Shown here in pieces: positions 4,872 to 37,711 of a stretch of 64,000 nucleotides of DNA (position 1 is the stretch's first letter; every line of letters begins with the position of its first letter). The DNA is taken from assembly GCF_001750145.1 (NCBI RefSeq), contig NZ_CP015732.1, positions 4,154,001 through 4,218,000 on the forward strand, given 5' to 3'. This stretch comes from Arthrobacter sp. U41. GTDB lineage: Bacteria; Actinomycetota; Actinomycetes; Actinomycetales; Micrococcaceae. Both the position numbers and the translations under genes were made by a program. The notes below the pieces were generated by a model. That model was not told the origin of the DNA. It saw only the letters and a list, made by a program, of their open reading frames with translations, and made no database searches.

Positions 4872-6277
4872 TGCGGGACGCCCCAGCGGGACGCCAGGAA
4901 GTCGAGCCCGGCGGGCAGCCCCTTGGATCCGGTCTCCCAGGAGTGCCCGGCACCAGGGATCTGGCGGGCCTCCACGGTGAACCCGGCGGCGCGCGCGGCC
5001 CCGGACAGGAGCTCCATATAACCAACGAACTCAGGGTCCCGCTCACCGGCGCCAAAGTAGATGCCATGCCCCTCGTAGCGGCGCTCCTTCATGAGCCGCA
5101 ACGGTGTCTGGCGGTCGAAGGCTTCGGTGTCCCCGCCGAAGGCGGCCAGGATGGTCTTTTCCCGCTCCTTGGCGAGGGCAGGTTCCTTCTCGCTCGAGAA
5201 GGCCAGTGCGGAGCTGTAGATCTCCGGATGCCGGGTCACCATCTGCATCGCGCAGGTCGCGCCAAAGGAGAAGCCGCCGGCCGCCCACTGCGCGGGGTCC
5301 GGATCCACGTCCAGGGTCCGGTTGATCCAGGCCGGCACGTCCACGGCGAGGAAGGTGTCCGCCCGGGCAATCCTGCTGTCCATGCAGAGGGTGTTGCCCG
5401 AGGCTGAGGCGTTCGGGTCAACGACGACCACCACCGGTGCCACGCCGTGGTGCGCTGCCGCGAACCGGTCCATCCGGCTCCGCAGCGCCCCGCCGGTCAG
5501 CCAGTCTGCCGGACCACCCGGCTGGCCGGAGAAGAGGACCAAAACCGGAAGGGCCGGCCGGGGTGTGCTCCGGTAGGCCGGCGGGAGATAAATGTAGGCC
5601 TCGCGGCTTTCGAACCCCGAGCTGGAGCCGGGGATCCCGGCGCGGCGCAGCACCCCGCTTTCGGGCAGGCCGGCCGGCGGCTGCCAGGCGGACAGGCTGG
5701 TGGCTGCGGCTCCCGGGGTGCGCTTCAGCGCGTCTTCCAGCGGCTGGATCCGCGCCACGGCCGTGCCCATCAGGTCGCTCACCGTGTGGTTGAGGCCGAA
5801 GTAGCCGTTGATCTGGACGGCGGAGAGCAGGACGACGCCGAGCAGGGCGCCCGTTGATGCCACGGTCGTCCGGGCAGGACGCCGTGCGGGGTTCAGGCCG
5901 TGATCGGGTCCGGAGCCGGCGTCGGGTCCGGGCGCCGCGGGGCCGGCGCTTCGCCAGGTCCGCCACAAGTGCAGAATCCAGAGCAGCAGCGCCGCGACCG
6001 AGGCAAGCAGCCAGGCAAGCACCTCCCGCGGCAGTTCGCCGGGGAAGACGGGGAAGACGTAGATCATCAGCCAGTGCGCGGCGGCTAGCAGCGCGGAGGC
6101 GGCCAGCACGACGGCGGCGACTGGAAGCAGGAAAACCATCACGCGGGGGGCGTCTGTGTCGCGGGGGCGGTAGCGCCCGCACTGCCGCAGGAAGTAGGCC
6201 ATGCCCGCCGCGCCGGCAGCCCAGGCAATCCAGAGCACCGGCCCGTCGACCAGGCGGATGCCGTCTAACAGGTCCAC
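4868..6277 (-). CDS. membrane-anchored esterase (esterase D-like), candidate aminoacyl-PG hydrolase
   Basis: A 469-residue protein. The first about 160 residues hold several hydrophobic segments (WIAWAAGAAGMAYFL, VMVFLLPVAAVVL, a third and fourth pair), followed by an alpha/beta-hydrolase domain of the putative esterase/mycolyltransferase type: AYIYLPPAYR, PVLVLFSGQPGG, nucleophile elbow GGFSFGA (Ser337) and a C-terminal GAGHSWETG with the likely catalytic His. The catalytic part is predicted to face outside. Start GTG at 6277, chosen because it lies 4 nt after the DUF2550 stop; the frame is open further upstream. Overlap with the MprF-like gene (GTGA) suggests a joint task. In Corynebacterium glutamicum an alanyl-PG synthase is paired with an alanyl-PG hydrolase of similar design, which is the model used here. 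Confidence 0.72.
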   Translation of the reverse strand: MDLLDGIRLVDGPVLWIAWAAGAAGMAYFLRQCGRYRPRDTDAPRVMVFLLPVAAVVLAASALLAAAHWLMIYVFPVFPGELPREVLAWLLASVAALLLWILHLWRTWRSAGPAAPGPDAGSGPDHGLNPARRPARTTVASTGALLGVVLLSAVQINGYFGLNHTVSDLMGTAVARIQPLEDALKRTPGAAATSLSAWQPPAGLPESGVLRRAGIPGSSSGFESREAYIYLPPAYRSTPRPALPVLVLFSGQPGGPADWLTGGALRSRMDRFAAAHHGVAPVVVVVDPNASASGNTLCMDSRIARADTFLAVDVPAWINRTLDVDPDPAQWAAGGFSFGATCAMQMVTRHPEIYSSALAFSSEKEPALAKEREKTILAAFGGDTEAFDRQTPLRLMKERRYEGHGIYFGAGERDPEFVGYMELLSGAARAAGFTVEARQIPGAGHSWETGSKGLPAGLDFLASRWGVPQ

Positions 6278-6281
6278 CAGG

Positions 6282-6713
6282 CTAGCGCCAGGTGCCGACG
6301 CCAATGACCGGCCCGGCCTCAAGCCAGGAGGACAACCCGGTGTAGGCGTCGAACCGCATCGCGAGCAGGACGTCCCGGCCCTCGTAGCGGAGTTCGACAA
6401 TCACGGCGTCGGGCTGGACCTTCACGAGTTCGGATTCAGTGGGCTTGCGCCGGCCGATCAGCTCGAGCGAGCTCCGCCGGAAGGTGTGTTTGGGCCGCAT
6501 GCTTAACGAGGCAAGGCGGAACCACTCCAGGTCGTTGTCCTGATAACGACAAACCCCCATCTGCCAGCTGTTCCCAGCCGTGCAAATGGAGGCGTCCACC
6601 GTGCCCAGGGCGCGCCGCAGATTGAAGCGGCGCACCCCGGAAAGGCACAGTGCAGATACCAGCAACGCAAAGACCGTTGCCAAGGCGATGAACGGAAAAA
6701 CTGTATCGTTCAT
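6282..6713 (-). CDS. DUF2550 family membrane protein
   Basis: A 143-residue protein with one N-terminal membrane segment (about 8-28, FIALATVFALLVSALCLSG) and a soluble domain with TFRRSSLELIGRRKPTESE and a C-terminal GVGTW. This is the actinobacterial DUF2550 family, found directly after atpC in many genomes, including Mycobacterium. Function is unknown. The start ATG at 6713 is 10 nt after the atpC stop, and the stop is 4 nt before the next start, so it belongs to the ATP synthase transcript. Confidence 0.85.
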   Translation of the reverse strand: MNDTVFPFIALATVFALLVSALCLSGVRRFNLRRALGTVDASICTAGNSWQMGVCRYQDNDLEWFRLASLSMRPKHTFRRSSLELIGRRKPTESELVKVQPDAVIVELRYEGRDVLLAMRFDAYTGLSSWLEAGPVIGVGTWR

Positions 6714-6723
6714 CAAGGTCGTG

Positions 6724-7008
6724 CTAGCGGATCCCCGCAGTAGCCGCGTCGCCCATTTGGGCGTTGTCAGCGACAATGACGACCCGGTTGTTGTCGACGG
6801 AGAAAAACCCGCCGTCGACAACTACGGCAATACGGTCACCGGAGACCGGCTGGATTGCCAGCTCACCTTCGGCCAGAATCGCCAGCAGGGGCGAGTGGCC
6901 GGGCAGGATTCCGATTTCACCATCGCTGGTGCGGGCCTTGACCATCTTGGCCGCTCCGGACCACACGAAGTGGTCCGCTGCGACAATCTCAACCTCAAGC
7001 TCAGCCAT
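6724..7008 (-). CDS. atpC: ATP synthase F1 subunit epsilon
   Basis: A 94-residue epsilon subunit of the central stalk, which links gamma to the c-ring and inhibits ATP hydrolysis. It has the N-terminal beta-sandwich motifs (VEIVAADHFVWSG, GEIGILPGHSPLLAIL, VDGGFFSV). It is shorter than the about 130-140 residue E. coli form because the C-terminal helical hairpin is reduced, as is usual in actinobacteria, so the inhibitory role may be weaker. The ATG lies 1 bp after the atpD stop. The frame is open upstream inside atpD but that part is not family-like. Confidence 0.95.
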   Translation of the reverse strand: MAELEVEIVAADHFVWSGAAKMVKARTSDGEIGILPGHSPLLAILAEGELAIQPVSGDRIAVVVDGGFFSVDNNRVVIVADNAQMGDAATAGIR

Positions 7009-7009
7009 A

Positions 7010-8497
<1,488 letters not shown>

Positions 8498-31865: not shown

Positions 31866-32051
31866 AGTTCCAGCCTACCGGTGGCCCGCAGTGTGGCGGA
31901 ATTTGGCGCCCGTCGTGACAGCCGGCTCACAGCGTGAACCATTACGCTGATTTCAACGTCGTGATCGGAGTATGCACTGCGGGCCGCCAGTGCCGGCCCG
32001 CAGCCTCCCGCCACTGCCCATCCCATCGTCGCCAGAGAATGGAGCCGCTGC

Positions 32052-32471
32052 ATGAACACCACCTTCCGGAAAAGCGTCGTCGTCGGCATCGCCGGCCTGT
32101 CCCTGGCCGGCTGCGCGCCTCAGGCTTCGGGCAGCCAGGGAACCGGCAGCGCACCGTCAGCCGCAGGCAGCGCCACCTATCAGGACGGCACCTTCAGCGC
32201 CGACGGCAACTATGTCTCGCCCAACGGCAACGAGACGGTGGGCGTGACCCTGACGCTCACCGGGGGCGCCGTGTCGGATGTCCAGATCACCCCGCACCCC
32301 TCCAACCCCAACACCAAGAAGTTCCAGGGGGAATTTGCCGGCGGCATCAAGGCCCAGATCGCCGGAAAGAAGCTCGATGAGATCAAAGTCTCAAAGGTAG
32401 CCGGCTCTTCGCTGACCAGCGGCGGCTTCAACCAGGCCGTGGAAAAGATCAAGTCCGAGGCACGGGCATAA
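32052..32471 (+). CDS. FMN-binding domain lipoprotein (candidate flavinylated protein)
   Basis: A 139-residue secreted lipoprotein. The signal peptide ends in a lipobox LAGC (Cys21), then a Ser/Gly/Ala linker, then a small FMN-bind domain (GTFSADGNY, VGVTLTLTGGAVSDVQITPHPSN, KLDEIKVSKVAGSSLTSGGFNQAVEKIKSEA as separated blocks). In RnfG-type FMN_bind domains the block SGATxTS carries the covalent FMN on Thr; here it reads AGSSLTS, so a Ser would stand at the attachment point. GGAG at 32041-32044 with 7 nt spacing fixes the start. It is followed by the flavin transferase gene, which supports the role. Confidence 0.82.
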   Translation: MNTTFRKSVVVGIAGLSLAGCAPQASGSQGTGSAPSAAGSATYQDGTFSADGNYVSPNGNETVGVTLTLTGGAVSDVQITPHPSNPNTKKFQGEFAGGIKAQIAGKKLDEIKVSKVAGSSLTSGGFNQAVEKIKSEARA

Positions 32472-32510
32472 CAGCACGTCATAACCGGCTAGTAGCCAGC
32501 AGGAGGAACC

Positions 32511-33383
32511 GTGCCGCATCCGGGCTGGACGGATTTCAGCTTCGACGGAATCGGTACCCGTTGGGAGATCTCAACCCCGTCCCCGCTGTCCGGCGCGCTC
32601 CGCAGCGGGCTGCTCGCAACCGTGGCGGACTATGACGCCGCCTGGTCCCGGTTCCGGTCCGACTCCCTGGTCGCAGAAGCCGCGCGGCGCCCTGGACGCT
32701 ACGTGTTCCCGGCCGGGGCCTCCACCCTCGGCCCGCTCTACAAGACCCTGTACCGGCTCAGCGGCGGAGCCATGACTCCGCTGATCGGCGGCAGCCTGGA
32801 ACAACTCGGCTATGACGCAAGCTACTCCCTGCGTCCGGGCGGCCCGCCGCTGCCAGCTCCGCCCTGGGAGGAGGTGCTGGACTGGCAGGGCACGGTGCTC
32901 ACCACCCGGGCCCCCGTCGTGATCGACGTCGGGGCTGCCGGAAAGGGACAGCTGGCCGACCTGTTGTCCGCCGGACTGCGCGCCGGCGGCGTCGGAGAGC
33001 ACTTCATCGACGCGAGCGGCGACCTGGTCAACGCCGGACCCACTCCGGTGGACGTGGGCCTGGAGCATCCCTATGATCCCGCCCGGGCCATTGGAATCGT
33101 CAGCCTCGGCGCCGGGGCACTCTGCGCTTCCGCCGCCAACCGGCGCGCCTGGGGCGACGGGCTGCACCACGTGCTGGACGGCACCACGGGCGCACCCGTC
33201 CGCACCGTCGTCGCCGGCTGGGCGATGGCACCGACGGCCGTGGTGGCCGACGCGCTGGCAACTGCCCTGTTCTTCGTCGAGGGACCCCGCCTGCGGGAAG
33301 AGTTCGATTGTTCGTGGCTCGCCGTCCACTCGGACGGCCACGCGGAGTATTCAGCTGATTTTGAAGGGGTGCTTTTCTCATGA
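32511..33383 (+). CDS. apbE: FAD:protein FMN transferase (ApbE)
   Basis: A 290-residue ApbE-family enzyme that attaches FMN from FAD to Ser/Thr of target proteins. Motifs: FDGIGTRWEI near the N-terminus, RFRSDSLV, a VIDVGAAGKGQLADLL block (KG motif of the FAD site), FIDASGDLVNAG and HHVLDGTTGAPV, and a C-terminal AMAPTAVVADALATALF with the metal-binding region. No clear signal peptide, so it may work in the cytoplasm or need another route. GTG start behind a strong AGGAGG (32501-32506). Its stop overlaps the next start by 4 nt. Confidence 0.9.
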   Translation: MPHPGWTDFSFDGIGTRWEISTPSPLSGALRSGLLATVADYDAAWSRFRSDSLVAEAARRPGRYVFPAGASTLGPLYKTLYRLSGGAMTPLIGGSLEQLGYDASYSLRPGGPPLPAPPWEEVLDWQGTVLTTRAPVVIDVGAAGKGQLADLLSAGLRAGGVGEHFIDASGDLVNAGPTPVDVGLEHPYDPARAIGIVSLGAGALCASAANRRAWGDGLHHVLDGTTGAPVRTVVAGWAMAPTAVVADALATALFFVEGPRLREEFDCSWLAVHSDGHAEYSADFEGVLFS

Positions 33384-34918
33384 CCGCCACCATCTCCACT
33401 CCGTTCAGTTCGCGGCTGGACACGATACTGGGCCGGTTCACGATGTACCGGCTGGTCCTCTGGGTACTGACCGTGCTGGCCGGCTACAGCCTGTTGCTGA
33501 ACATGCTGGGCTGGCTGACGTTCGGGGGCCCGGAGATGATCGCCCACCTGGCACTCTGCCTCGGCCTGACCTACGGCTCCAACCGGGCGCTCGCGGCCGC
33601 GTTCCACGTGCCTGCGCATTCTGAGTCGTCCCTGATCACCGGCCTGCTGCTCTACTTCCTCTTCTGGCCGACGCAATTCTCGGCCACCGGACTGCAGTAT
33701 CTGGACCTGGCCGGCGTCGCCCTCGCCTGCGTCCTCGCATCGGCGTCCAAGTACGCCCTGGCCTGGCGCGGTCGCCACATTTTCAATCCGGCGGCGGCTG
33801 GCGCTTTCATCACCGGGCTGACCGGCCTCAACATCGCCACCTGGTGGGCTGCCACCCCCGCCATGCTCTGGCTGGTGCTGCCCGGGGTCCTGCTGGTGCT
33901 CTACCGGCTGCGGAAGCTGCTGATGGCGGCCGTGTTCACGGTGGTGGCGGTGTCCCTGGTGGCCGTGGAGCTGCTGCGCACCGGCATGGGAGCGGGCGGG
34001 GCGCTGTGGCAGGCCCTCGCCCAGCGCCCCGTGCTGTTCTTCGTCGGCTTTATGCTGACCGAGCCGCTCACCCTCCCGCCGCGCCGGTGGCAGCAGCTGG
34101 CGCTGGCCGCCGTCGTCGGACTGCTGTTCGCCCTCCCCTACAACCTGGGCTTTCTCGCCAACTCCCCAGAACTGGCACTGCTGGTGGGAAACGCGCTCGC
34201 CTTTCTCACCGGTCAGCGCGGCCGCATTCAGCTCCGCTTCCGGGGCTCCCGCCCCTTGACCCCGACGACGACGGAGTTCAGCTTCCAGCCGGAACGCCCG
34301 CTCCGCTTCACCCCGGGCCAGTACATCGAACTGAACCTGCCGCATGCGAAGGCGGACCGCAAAGGCCGCAGGCGGGTGTTCAGCCTGACCAGCCCCCCGG
34401 ACTCGACGGAGCTCACGGTCGGGGTGGGTACGGCCGAGCCGTTGTCCACGGCAAAGCGGTCGCTCCTGGCCCTGGAGCCCGGCGACGAACTGACGGCCAC
34501 CACCGTGGGCGGGGATTTTGTCCTGCCGCGGAAACCGGAGGTCCCGCTGCTGCTGATAGCGGCCGGCATCGGCATTACCCCGTATCTGGCCCAGCTGTCC
34601 GGCGGCTCCGCCGGGGAGCGGGACGTGGTCCTGCTGTACCTGGCCAGGAACGCCAGCGAACTCGCCTACACCGGGGAACTCGAACGCTCCGGCGCCCGGG
34701 TCATCGCCCGGCTTGCCGACGGCTCCGCGCCGCCGGCGTTTATGCGCGATGCGGGCGCCGCCCGGATCGACGGCGCCTCGCTGAGGGAGCTCGTCCCCGA
34801 CATCGCGGGCAGGGTTGTCTATGTCTCGGGCTCCCCCGCGAGTGTCCGTTCCCTCCGCGCCGCCGCCCGCCGGGCCGGGGCCCGGAGGATCCTCGTGGAC
34901 TCCTTTGCGGGCTACTGA
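33380..34918 (+). CDS. fused NqrB/RnfD-like membrane domain and ferredoxin-NADP reductase-like domain
   Basis: A 512-residue fusion. The first about 285 residues hold 8-10 membrane helices with NqrB/RnfD marks (SESSLITGLLLYF, HIFNPAAAGAFITG, FFVGFMLTEPLTLP). The rest is an FAD/NAD(P) reductase: FTPGQYIELNLP, the FAD-binding RRVFSLTS (about 330), GDFVLP, NAD(P)-binding LLLIAAGIGITPY (about 390-402) and YVSGSPASVRSL near the C-terminus. The expected reaction is NAD(P)H to FAD to membrane flavin to outside acceptor, probably the lipoprotein two genes upstream. I do not see an obvious SGAT flavinylation motif in the membrane half. It overlaps apbE by 4 nt (ATGA). Confidence 0.85.
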   Translation: MTATISTPFSSRLDTILGRFTMYRLVLWVLTVLAGYSLLLNMLGWLTFGGPEMIAHLALCLGLTYGSNRALAAAFHVPAHSESSLITGLLLYFLFWPTQFSATGLQYLDLAGVALACVLASASKYALAWRGRHIFNPAAAGAFITGLTGLNIATWWAATPAMLWLVLPGVLLVLYRLRKLLMAAVFTVVAVSLVAVELLRTGMGAGGALWQALAQRPVLFFVGFMLTEPLTLPPRRWQQLALAAVVGLLFALPYNLGFLANSPELALLVGNALAFLTGQRGRIQLRFRGSRPLTPTTTEFSFQPERPLRFTPGQYIELNLPHAKADRKGRRRVFSLTSPPDSTELTVGVGTAEPLSTAKRSLLALEPGDELTATTVGGDFVLPRKPEVPLLLIAAGIGITPYLAQLSGGSAGERDVVLLYLARNASELAYTGELERSGARVIARLADGSAPPAFMRDAGAARIDGASLRELVPDIAGRVVYVSGSPASVRSLRAAARRAGARRILVDSFAGY

Positions 34919-34996: not shown

Positions 34997-35069
34997 GCCC
35001 TCGTAGCTCAGGGGATAGAGCGTCTGCCTCCGGAGCAGAAGGTCGTTGGTTCGATTCCAATCGAGGGCA
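34997..35069 (+). tRNA. tRNA-Arg (anticodon CCG)
   Basis: A 73-nt cloverleaf can be folded fully: acceptor GCCCTCG with CGAGGGC plus discriminator A, D stem GCTC/GAGC, anticodon stem TCTGC/GCAGA with loop CTCCGGA (anticodon CCG, reading CGG), a 5-nt variable loop and T stem GTTGG/CCAAT with loop TTCGATT. CCA is not encoded. Confidence 0.97.
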
Positions 35070-35072
35070 CAG

Positions 35073-35119
35073 ACACAAGAACCCCTAGGATCCACTGGAT
35101 TCTGGGGGTTCTTTCGTGT
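35073..35119 (+). terminator. terminator of the tRNA-Arg transcript
   Basis: A long imperfect hairpin starts 4 nt after the tRNA: core stem AAGAACCCC (35077-35085) with GGGGTTCTT (35105-35113), extended outward by ACAC/GTGT and inward by TCCA/TGGA. A short T-rich run follows the core. Confidence 0.8.
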
Positions 35120-35177
35120 TGGCTGACAGGGTGCAGGGTTAACGGCCGCGCCGCGGCCGTTCGAATGGGGGCAACGC

Positions 35178-35978
35178 ATGGACTTCGGTGCAGCGCTGCT
35201 GTTTCCGTTCCAGTGGCTGGTGTCGGCCGTCATGGTGGGACTCCATGACGGCCTGAGCGCCCTCGGTATGCCGGCGGCCAGCGGCTGGACGTGGACCCTG
35301 TCCATCATCGGGCTCGTCCTGGTCATCCGCGCCGCCTTGATCCCGGTATCCCTGAAGCAAATCAAGGCCCAGCGCCGCATGCGGCTGTTGCAGCCGGAGT
35401 TGAAGAAGCTGGAGGACAAGTACAGGGGCAATACGGACCCGCTCTCACGGCAGGCCATGGCACAGGAGCAGATGGCCCTCTACAAGAAGCACGGCACCAA
35501 CCCGTTCTCAGCCTGCCTTCCGATGCTGATCCAAGTGCCGTTCTTCCTGGCGCTCTTCACCGTGCTGTCCGGCATTACGACGGCGGCCACCAGCGGTACG
35601 GGCATCGGCGCCATGAGCCACGAACAGGTGGTCCAGTTCGAGAAGTCGAGCATCTTTGGCGCCGCGCTGTCCGCCTCGCTGCTTCACGGCACCCCGGGCA
35701 GCGGCAACGCGGTCGCGGTGTGGCTGCTCTCGATCGTGATGATCCTTGCCATGACGGCGGCACAGTTCATCACCCAGAAGCACATCATGGCCACGAGTGC
35801 ATCCGCGGAGTCCATGGCGGGCCCGTTTCTGCGGCAGCAGAAAGCGGTGCTCTACGCCTTGCCCATCGTCTTCGGCATTGGTGGCATCATCTTCCCCATC
35901 GGCGTCCTGATCTACTGGACCACGACGAATTGGTGGACCATGATGCAGCAGTTCGTCCTTGACCCGCGCTCCCGGTGA
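35178..35978 (+). CDS. YidC/Oxa1 family membrane insertase (paralog)
   Basis: A 266-residue insertase with five membrane helices: start near LLFPFQWLVSAVMVGLHDG, the Oxa1 core WTLSIIGLVLVIRAALIPVSLKQIKAQ, cytosolic KLEDKYRGNTDP and KKHGTNPFSACLPMLIQVPFFLALF, and the last helices ending YWTTTNWWTMMQQFVL. It inserts proteins into the membrane. The main actinobacterial yidC usually sits near rpmH and rnpA; this solitary gene by a tRNA is more likely a second paralog. ATG at 35178. Confidence 0.88.
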   Translation: MDFGAALLFPFQWLVSAVMVGLHDGLSALGMPAASGWTWTLSIIGLVLVIRAALIPVSLKQIKAQRRMRLLQPELKKLEDKYRGNTDPLSRQAMAQEQMALYKKHGTNPFSACLPMLIQVPFFLALFTVLSGITTAATSGTGIGAMSHEQVVQFEKSSIFGAALSASLLHGTPGSGNAVAVWLLSIVMILAMTAAQFITQKHIMATSASAESMAGPFLRQQKAVLYALPIVFGIGGIIFPIGVLIYWTTTNWWTMMQQFVLDPRSR

Positions 35979-36005
35979 GAGACCGGGAAGGATCTTCCGG
36001 CCGGC

Positions 36006-36460
36006 TCAGCTCCGGGCCTCCACGATCTCCTTGAGCTTCGCCAGCGCCAGCGCCACGCTTCGTCGAACATGGCGACGAATTCCTCCTCACTGTCGAGCTC
36101 CACGTCCACTGTCGTCACCCCGCCGGCGGCGCTGAAGGCGTACTTCTCATGGGCGCCCATAAAGGCCTTCGCGGCCTCGCTCGTGGTGTCGTCCTCGCCG
36201 TTAACGACCTGCCCGATATAGCGCAGGGAAATCAACTCGTGCGGTCTGTTCTCCTCGACCGTGGCGATCATCCCGGCCACGGAACCGTCGCCGTCGGGCC
36301 CGAGGAACCGGATTTCGCTGCCCTGGCTCCAGTTGCCCTCGTAGTAGGAATCGCTGTTGAACACGCTGGTCCACTCCCGGTACGTGGCATCGTTCAGCAT
36401 GGTGGTCCACACGTCCCGCACGGGGGCGTCGATCGTCACCGAATACCTTAACTTTTCCAT
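36006..36460 (-). CDS. SRPBCC (AHSA1-like) family protein with apparent frameshift
   Basis: The first about 138 codons give a START/SRPBCC lipid-binding-type fold (KLRYSVTIDAPVRDVWTTMLN, REWTSVFNSDSYYEGNW, GMIATVEENRPHELISLRY, TTVDVELDSEEEFVAMFDEAW). After EAW (near 36058) the frame turns to RWRWRSSRRSW, but one frame over the DNA reads LALAKLKEIVEARS followed by a stop at 36006. A single missing base in a GCTGGCGCTGGCG stretch explains both; 455 nt is one short of a codon multiple. Without correction the frame would run on to 35912 into the 3' end of the convergent yidC gene. Ligand unknown; 152 residues would be normal length. Confidence 0.8.
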
Positions 36461-36652
36461 GCCTGATTTTAAGTCCGGGCCGGAACTGCGGACCACACCG
36501 GAAAGTGGGAGGCGCGCCACCCTGCCAATTGTCGGTGCCCGCTCGTAGGCTGTCTGCATCGGCAGCGGGGTTCCGGCGGCCGGGTGGCTGGACTGGGTGC
36601 CGGCTGCCGCACCGCCACCACGGGATCCCGCCGAAGTACTAAGGGGTCTCAC

Positions 36653-37711
36653 ATGCACTGTTCCATCATTCCTCCGTACATGCTCCGCCGCCTGGCGGCC
36701 CAGCGCGAACCGGAGCTCTCCGACGCCGCCCGCGCGGCGAAGGAAGCCCTGCACCACGTCCCGAGCTTCCAGGCGTCCCGCGCCGTGCCCGGGCCCGGCA
36801 GCCATCCGGGAATGCGGGAGCCCCGGCCGGCCCCGCCGGAACGGACGGTCTACGACGCCAAATTCGCCGAGCAGCTCCCCGGCAGCGTGGTCCGCAAAGA
36901 AGGGGAACCGCCCACCGGCGATCCCGCCGCCGACGAAGCCTATGACGGGCTGGGACACACCCACCGCCTCTACGCCGACGCCTTCGACCGGAACTCGATC
37001 GACGGCAACGGCCTCCACCTCGAGGCCACGGTCCACTACGGCCGCCTGTACGACAACGCATTCTGGGACGGCCGGCAGATGGTTTTCGGCGACGGCGACG
37101 GCCAGGTGTTCCAGCGGTTCACGAAGTCGTTGAGCGTCATCGGCCACGAACTCGCCCACGGCGTCACCCAGTACTCCGCAGGGCTGGTCTACCGCAACCA
37201 GGCCGGGGCGCTGAACGAATCGATGTCCGATGTCTTTGGGGCGCTCGTTGAACAGTATGTCCGGCAGCAGTCGGCGGCGGAGGCCAGCTGGCTGATCGGC
37301 GAGGGCCTCTTCACGGATCAGGTCCAGGGGACCGCGTTGCGCTCCCTGCAGGCTCCGGGGACCGCGTACGACGACGACGTGCTCGGCAAGGACCCGCAGC
37401 CGGACTCCATGGACAGCTACGTGCACACGAGCGCGGACAACGGTGGGGTGCACATCAACTCCGGGATCCCCAACCGGGCGTTCTTCCTGGTTGCCACCGA
37501 GCTCGGCGGCAACGCGTGGGACGCTCCGGGCCGGATCTGGTACGAGACGCTGACGGGCGGCACGCTGGTCCCGACGGCCACGTTCGGGGCATTCGCCAAG
37601 GCCACTGCCGCCTCCGCCAGGGAGCTTTTCGGGGCGGATTCCCCAGAGCATGACGCCGTGCGGTCCGCGTGGGAAACTGTGAAGGTAAAGTTCCCTGGAG
37701 CCAGACGATAA
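36653..37711 (+). CDS. protealysin-like neutral zinc metalloprotease (M4 family)
   Basis: A 352-residue M4 peptidase. The zinc motif is VIGHELAHG (His165, Glu166, His169), third ligand Glu189 in GALNESMSD, and the catalytic His267 in DNGGVHINSGIPN. There is no signal peptide; the short N-terminal part starts with HCSIIPPYML, the short propeptide hallmark of protealysin-like enzymes, which differ from secreted thermolysin with its long propeptide. Start ATG 36653. It is followed 59 bp later by an emfourin-type inhibitor gene, a typical pairing. Confidence 0.93.
   Translation: MHCSIIPPYMLRRLAAQREPELSDAARAAKEALHHVPSFQASRAVPGPGSHPGMREPRPAPPERTVYDAKFAEQLPGSVVRKEGEPPTGDPAADEAYDGLGHTHRLYADAFDRNSIDGNGLHLEATVHYGRLYDNAFWDGRQMVFGDGDGQVFQRFTKSLSVIGHELAHGVTQYSAGLVYRNQAGALNESMSDVFGALVEQYVRQQSAAEASWLIGEGLFTDQVQGTALRSLQAPGTAYDDDVLGKDPQPDSMDSYVHTSADNGGVHINSGIPNRAFFLVATELGGNAWDAPGRIWYETLTGGTLVPTATFGAFAKATAASARELFGADSPEHDAVRSAWETVKVKFPGARR

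Follow-up and report, generated by a model that had tools for sequence, protein, structure and literature searches.

Membrane proteins that fuse an RnfD/NqrB-like domain to a NAD-binding domain, and that are predicted to pass electrons to a flavinylated partner outside the cytosol, have been described as NQR/RNF-like flavinylation systems by Meheust 2021 (PMC8238504; 127 clusters, primarily from Actinobacteria and the Candidate Phyla Radiation (CPR)) and by Huang 2024 (PMC11334425), in both cases by genome and structure prediction. For these accounts, as for the other papers cited here by PMC number, excerpts are the basis; the excerpts give no trigger, regulon or proven acceptor for such systems (SigL and flavinylation were not searched for jointly), no G-S-S variant of the attachment motif and no compartment for ApbE. 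Here we describe a divergent relative in a 64,000-nucleotide stretch of the Arthrobacter sp. U41 genome (the window), where genes for a lipoprotein with a domain predicted to bind flavin mononucleotide (FMN), an ApbE and a membrane-reductase fusion form a trio. This trio is a conserved unit that likely passes electrons from NAD(P)H to a surface lipoprotein with a predicted covalent FMN, and its induction likely depends on a SigL/RslA-type, presumably oxidation-responsive sigma factor. At the level of sequence, the order of the genes, a signal for export on the lipoprotein, an ApbE without signal, an invariant G-S-S and a shared promoter site are firm. The new element is the control, a predicted redox regulon, rather than the fused enzyme: a preliminary description of this DNA had taken the fused form to be undescribed, and both papers already contain it; its further statement that the form is not characterised is right for experiments only and wrong for description by genome and structure prediction. 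The features of the locus, in window positions, are as follows.

31935..31960, + strand: predicted promoter for an extracytoplasmic function (ECF) sigma factor, TGAACC-N16-CGTC, a site common to 73/79 relatives
32052..32471, + strand: exported lipoprotein with a predicted FMN-binding domain, 139 residues, lipobox LAGC with Cys21
32400..32420, + strand: AGSSLTS motif, residues 117-123 of the lipoprotein
32409-32411, + strand: codon of Ser120, the predicted FMN attachment site by alignment to the canonical motif, with G-S-S in 96/96 lipoproteins
32511..33383, + strand: ApbE, FAD (flavin adenine dinucleotide):protein FMN transferase, 290 residues, GTG start, without signal peptide; Pfam ApbE, E 9.6e-27
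33380-34918, + strand: the whole fusion protein, 512 residues
33380..34219, + strand: RnfD/NqrB-like membrane domain of the fusion, residues 1-280
34220..34918, + strand: FAD/NAD(P)H reductase domain of the fusion, residues 281-512, presumably cytosolic

The tight operon reported in the preliminary description is borne out: all three genes lie on the + strand, with a 39-base gap between lipoprotein and ApbE and an exact ATGA overlap between ApbE and fusion. The identities given to the parts also stand, as the weak Pfam scores of the window's lipoprotein and fusion are offset by the matches of their relatives and by the predicted structure of the fusion. Conservation of the trio as a unit, a check named beforehand, was followed through 97 loci, made up of the window's own locus, one from a further genome of the genus, the best 80 of 406 named records and 15 from other lineages. 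The order lipoprotein-ApbE-fusion is kept on one strand and closely spaced in 94/97 of them, with apbE between the other two genes in 94/97. Of the other three, L049 meets a contig end, L107 has a 2.65-kb insertion, and in L110 ApbE and fusion are more widely spaced. In L107 a gene for a long Ala/Gly-rich protein (5885-7435) stands between lipoprotein and apbE. The fusion is present in 52/61 genus genomes and in 19/296 class genomes, its closest named relatives being from Arthrobacter and Pseudarthrobacter (at most 90% identity), and outside the genus the distribution of the fusion is patchy. A locus from another phylum lineage (G381, locus L124) shows by eye the identical trio order, with a canonical SGAT motif.

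We aligned the spacer between the lipoprotein gene and argS, which lies upstream in opposite orientation, from 16 genomes; TGAACC is invariant in it, and an AACGT block is conserved. The pattern TGAACC-N16-CGT[C/T] precedes the lipoprotein gene at 73/79 Arthrobacter-group loci, and the reversed pattern at 0/79. In the window's genome (4.79 Mb in four contigs) this loose pattern has 56 matches versus 21 for its reversal, most of them in coding sequence, and the strict form, TGAACCNTT-N13-CGTY, has just three, which are those of the trio, sigL and Lipoprotein_15 units (reversed, 0). Over 21 genomes the strict pattern gave 49 matches, of which 29 belong to the sigL locus and 13 to the trio; the remaining 7 are about as many as the 6 of the control.

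Two of the loose sites stand back to back at C1:868.9k, with the genes for an ECF sigma factor and its anti-sigma factor on one side and a lipoprotein gene in divergent orientation on the other. By its match to a PDB chain (E 4.8e-30) the sigma factor resembles SigL, and the anti-sigma factor carries a zf-HC2 domain and matches chain 3hug_B (E 2.5e-7), which we take to be an RslA chain. The divergent lipoprotein belongs to Lipoprotein_15 (PF03640, E 5.8e-28); no solved structure matched it at E up to 0.1. Across 30 sigL loci of the genus (the best 30 from the 59 genomes that carry sigL), the site precedes the Lipoprotein_15 gene in 30/30 and sigL in 21/30. The anti-sigma gene adjoins sigL in 30/30 and its product keeps HxxxCxxC in 30/30; both cysteines of the CxxxC of Lipoprotein_15 are likewise kept in 30/30, followed by WPP in 23. 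By sequence, the genome has the parts of a SigL/RslA-type regulon, with a homologous sigma factor, a zinc anti-sigma factor and an autoregulatory site common to the predicted target promoters. Since sigL also occurs in genomes without the trio (e.g. G582, G608 and G614), the trio appears to be an added member of the regulon. RslA of Mycobacterium tuberculosis loses its zinc and its affinity for SigL on oxidation (PMC2877774), and because of this redox sensitivity the operon is likely to be oxidation-induced.

Several observations weigh against this reading. The strict form is found at just 39/79 trio loci, and the loose one is absent at 6/79; among the 21 genomes of the strict scan 17 have the trio, and 4/17 lack a strict site there. 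Upstream of the lipoprotein gene outside the Arthrobacter group the loose pattern was found at 0/15 loci, so SigL-type control would hold for the Arthrobacter group only, and one genome (G604) has the trio with no sigL match at 1e-30. The -10 half reads CGTT at 52/73 trio sites versus CGTC at 50/51 sigL-locus sites, and because of this difference a different ECF sigma factor is possible. SigL of M. tuberculosis, moreover, prefers G at position -11 (PMC6372665), unlike the C or T seen here. The -10 mismatch and the CGTT form are the main points against SigL itself. With regard to the enzyme, the profile of the fusion family matched RsxD, taken by itself, weakly (probability 13%, E 0.0022). Altogether, the reading is built from sequence and predicted models.

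Within Pfam the window's fusion matches only NAD_binding_1 (PF00175), at E 0.015 and below the cut-off; NqrB/RnfD (PF03116) gave no match at E up to 1, and 2/12 fusions (best 1.7e-6), a set that includes the window's but not as one of the two, match this family. The predicted structure matches RnfD and NqrF and so gives the fusion, as modelled, its two folds. E. coli RsxD has a loop containing GISQATPL, whose Thr we take to be the covalent FMN site; this loop aligns to a gap in the fusion. Since the loop carrying the covalent FMN of RnfD is missing, the flavin of the RnfD-like domain would be non-covalent. The motifs do not decide between NAD and NADP. With regard to a split form of the fusion, most of the phylum matches (39/296) are reductase-only; for the stand-alone reductases of one small-genome family, no RnfD-like neighbour was seen within the 1.5 kb read. 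In locus L024 the fusion gene contains one in-frame TAA and is possibly a decayed copy.

The window's lipoprotein matches Pfam FMN_bind at E 8.3e-4 with 20.4 bits, under the gathering score of 22, and 22/23 lipoproteins, the window's included, match it at E up to 0.01. With the lipoprotein model, Foldseek returned no match at E < 0.001, while VIA-align placed FMN-binding domains at the top, with IscU and lipoyl-ligase folds close behind. A profile built from 88 sequences chosen for GSSLTS, which could miss lipoproteins with other motifs, located a lipoprotein in 96/97 loci. G-S-S is kept in 96/96 of these and in 23/23 lipoproteins found by BLAST, and G-S-S-L-T is invariant. The AGSSLTS reported in the preliminary description is present at residues 117-123; the Ser acceptor, which had been put forward as unusual, is no oddity, as Ser is already known as a flavinylation acceptor (PMC12052999) and G-S-S is invariant in 96/96. 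Compared with the canonical ApbE target D-x-x-[S/T]-G-A-[S/T] (PMC12052999), S stands for D in 88/96, A for S/T in 85/96 and S for A in 96/96. What sets the motif apart is the Ser that replaces Ala and, at most loci, the absence of the canonical Asp and Ser/Thr. With a view to possible export of the lipoprotein in a folded, flavinylated state by twin-arginine translocation (Tat), the n-regions of the export signals show R-R-x-phi-phi in 8/96, R-K-x-phi-phi in 72/96 and neither in 16/96, counts that carry no chance control.

A strongly hydrophobic stretch before the ApbE domain was found in 0/95 assessable loci (highest window, 1.24); two of the 97 were dropped from this count, L049 for its contig end and L102, where apbE similarity begins late, possibly as a decayed copy. 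Measured in the same way, the lipoproteins have a lowest value of 1.35, all 96 lie above the highest ApbE, and 83/96 reach at least 1.6, the threshold first set. The measure is our own hydrophobicity window rather than a trained predictor, with E. coli Ftp as the positive control, and the split between ApbE and substrate was set after the fact. Neither an N-terminal signal peptide nor a lipobox, either of which would mark an exported ApbE, was seen in any of the 95 assessable loci. An in-frame stop leaves at most 25 residues upstream of the domain in 48/95 loci; for the ApbE of the window's genome (L006) only 19 residues separate the stop from the conserved domain.

This lack of a signal is not unique to the trio, since 48/50 other actinomycete ApbEs have no hydrophobic N-terminal stretch at Kyte-Doolittle (KD) 1.6 and 4 of 8 plasmid ApbEs also lack a signal. 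The 50 loci are 30 plus 20 hand-picked among the matches listed, with a domain start set by a simple expression and misplaced in some, and the exceptions, L163 and L194, have unresolved start codons. The plasmid ApbEs (8 taken from the 30 listed among 538, from proteobacteria and a lactobacillus) lie outside the actinobacteria and divide into 4 with and 4 without a signal, which weakens the idea of the signal-less ApbE as an actinobacterial peculiarity. Aligned with E. coli Ftp, the trio's ApbE retains the residues at the places of the SH[VI]IDP His, the Ser of TSG and D-x3-T, the roles of which we in part presume. At face value, attachment of FMN probably takes place in the cytosol, either ahead of export or in its course. 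ApbE needs no more than a seven-residue motif (PMC12052999). Flavinylation in the cytosol would make the export of FAD needless; in Listeria, flavin is transported by a dedicated route (PMC9973259).

A second flavinylation locus lies in the same genome (G000:C1 ~996,600-999,300; L005 3593-6307) and encodes a reductase that by eye is MsrQ-like with a NAD domain, together with an FMN-binding protein carrying SGATVTS and a signal-less ApbE, the sole other ApbE of the genome found at E 0.001. Among MsrQ-linked FMN-binding proteins of other actinomycetes (L181-L200), many have RR-x-phi-phi before the hydrophobic stretch (no chance control was made), as would be expected if such proteins were flavinylated first and then exported by Tat. 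The preliminary description had missed this second locus as well as the promoter, the SigL/RslA link and the lack of a signal on ApbE.

By analogy with M. tuberculosis RslA, the zinc anti-sigma factor, once oxidised, would release its sigma factor, which would co-induce the trio and the CxxxC Lipoprotein_15. A hydride from NAD(P)H would then be taken up by FAD in the C-terminal domain of the fusion, and the electron would cross the membrane via the non-covalent flavin of the RnfD-like domain and, on the outer side, reduce the lipoprotein's FMN. Ser120 would have received this FMN from the operon's own ApbE, probably on the cytosolic side and no later than during export. The route from NAD(P)H through FAD and membrane flavin to the lipoprotein FMN, proposed in the preliminary description, stands as a prediction from sequence and models; it would use one half of the RNF/NQR path, as proposed earlier (PMC8238504, PMC11334425).

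In 12/12 Arthrobacter-group loci scanned (12 of the 80) the trio neighbours a tRNA gene, which is outside the mechanism:

34997..35070, + strand: tRNA-Arg (CCG), following the trio

Across lineages the flanks vary (argS/tRNA-Arg, glmU-prs and others), and because of this the trio looks self-contained. We surveyed 15 loci outside the Arthrobacter group, with neighbour genes called by a simple GC-bias script and clustered, and 18 proteins read by eye, most neighbours remaining unclassified. Recurrent ones, by eye, are the housekeeping genes glmU and prs and genes for ClpB, a histidine kinase, sugar transferases and a ferredoxin-NADP reductase-like protein. No neighbour recurs across lineages in this survey, and for this reason no acceptor gene is named; the survey of trio and neighbours proposed in the preliminary description thus confirmed the unit (94/97) and yielded no acceptor. 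Three genomes of one family (L106, L108 and L109) have a phytoene-desaturase-type FAD-dependent oxidoreductase (by eye, L106) upstream of the trio, and two genomes (L112 and L113) a P-type cation ATPase gene (by eye, L113) between prs and the trio. Downstream, a YidC-like gene at 35178 has a BLAST match in 3/80 relatives (L026, L028 and L029), some loci ending early, and the segment from tRNA-Arg to an M4-type peptidase gene (by eye; window 34997-37711) differs in length among relatives and is possibly an insertion hot spot.

Flavins readily reduce Fe(III), and the module could be a constitutive or iron-linked ferric reductase that reduces Fe(III) outside for uptake, its promoter resemblance being incidental. 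A similar role in Fe(III) uptake has been proposed for some flavinylation clusters, and six NQR/RNF-like clusters contain the iron transporter VIT1 (PMC8238504). However, no iron transporter was recognised among the surveyed neighbours, with the limits given above, and the conserved upstream block resembles an ECF-type promoter (an iron box was not scanned for); we consider this explanation unlikely. It is improbable, too, that the lipoprotein passes electrons to the respiratory chain or another envelope redox enzyme through a quinone or cytochrome, rather than to a stress target. Other flavinylated domains do feed respiratory enzymes (PMC8238504), and a ferredoxin-NADP reductase-like gene (cluster c3, by eye) is near the trio in 7/15 loci, all of one family, but no oxidase or cytochrome was recognised beside the trio, some neighbours being unclassified, and the flanks vary among lineages. 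That the lipoprotein is not flavinylated at all, its motif having changed and the signal-less ApbE working on another cytosolic target, would suit the three departures from the canonical motif at most loci and the different compartments of ApbE and substrate by sequence, but is quite improbable given that G-S-S-L-T is invariant rather than drifting, that apbE sits in the middle of the trio in 94/97 loci and that ApbE keeps the Ftp-aligned His, TSG Ser and D-x3-T.

Returning to the redox-controlled electron export that we favour, the acceptor may tentatively be sought among envelope targets that oxidation damages, the co-regulated CxxxC Lipoprotein_15 being the first candidate. A speculative extension is a stress response that reduces the outside, in which a SigL-type regulon supplies a flavin lipoprotein that re-reduces or metal-loads the CxxxC lipoprotein, FMN being fixed inside by a cytosolic ApbE. 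The predicted three-member SigL/RslA-type regulon supplies a testable trigger and one candidate acceptor; if oxidation-induced, the trio would be part of an envelope stress response, and NQR/RNF-like flavinylation systems would shift from respiration and iron uptake to envelope redox defence.

Of the known systems, SigL-RslA of M. tuberculosis provides an ECF sigma factor and a zinc anti-sigma factor homologous to the pair here, but the regulon predicted here comprises sigL-rslA, one Lipoprotein_15 and the flavin trio, and the -10 element differs from the M. tuberculosis consensus at -11. An MsrQ-like system likewise combines an NAD(P)H-linked membrane reductase, an FMN-binding protein and apbE; the locus of the same genome that resembles one (FMN_bind and ApbE by search, the membrane protein by eye) is, however, a separate one with a canonical SGAT motif, and the family of its membrane protein has been described as heme-binding. 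With Na+-NQR and RNF the module shares the predicted folds of RnfD/NqrB, of the NqrF FAD domain and of the NqrC/RnfG FMN domain, but the operon has three genes only and lacks the covalent-FMN loop of RnfD. An NqrA-F or RnfA-G multi-subunit operon is not present at the locus, the other subunits not having been searched for in the rest of the genome. Closest are the NQR/RNF-like flavinylation systems: their RnfD/NqrB-like membrane domain lacks the covalent-FMN Thr and is fused to a NAD-binding domain, they have a single FMN-binding partner outside the cytosol and an apbE close by, and their electron flow is predicted to be one-way. The trio agrees in the lipobox of its lipoprotein, the adjoining apbE and the membrane domain, where the GISQATPL loop of RsxD falls in a gap. 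It differs in its G-S-S motif, in the SigL/RslA link and signal-less ApbE, which the excerpts of those accounts do not mention, and in a fusion without PF03116 (E up to 1) and with PF00175 below the cut-off, because of which the published criterion might miss it. The module belongs with the published NQR/RNF-like systems, as a divergent member.

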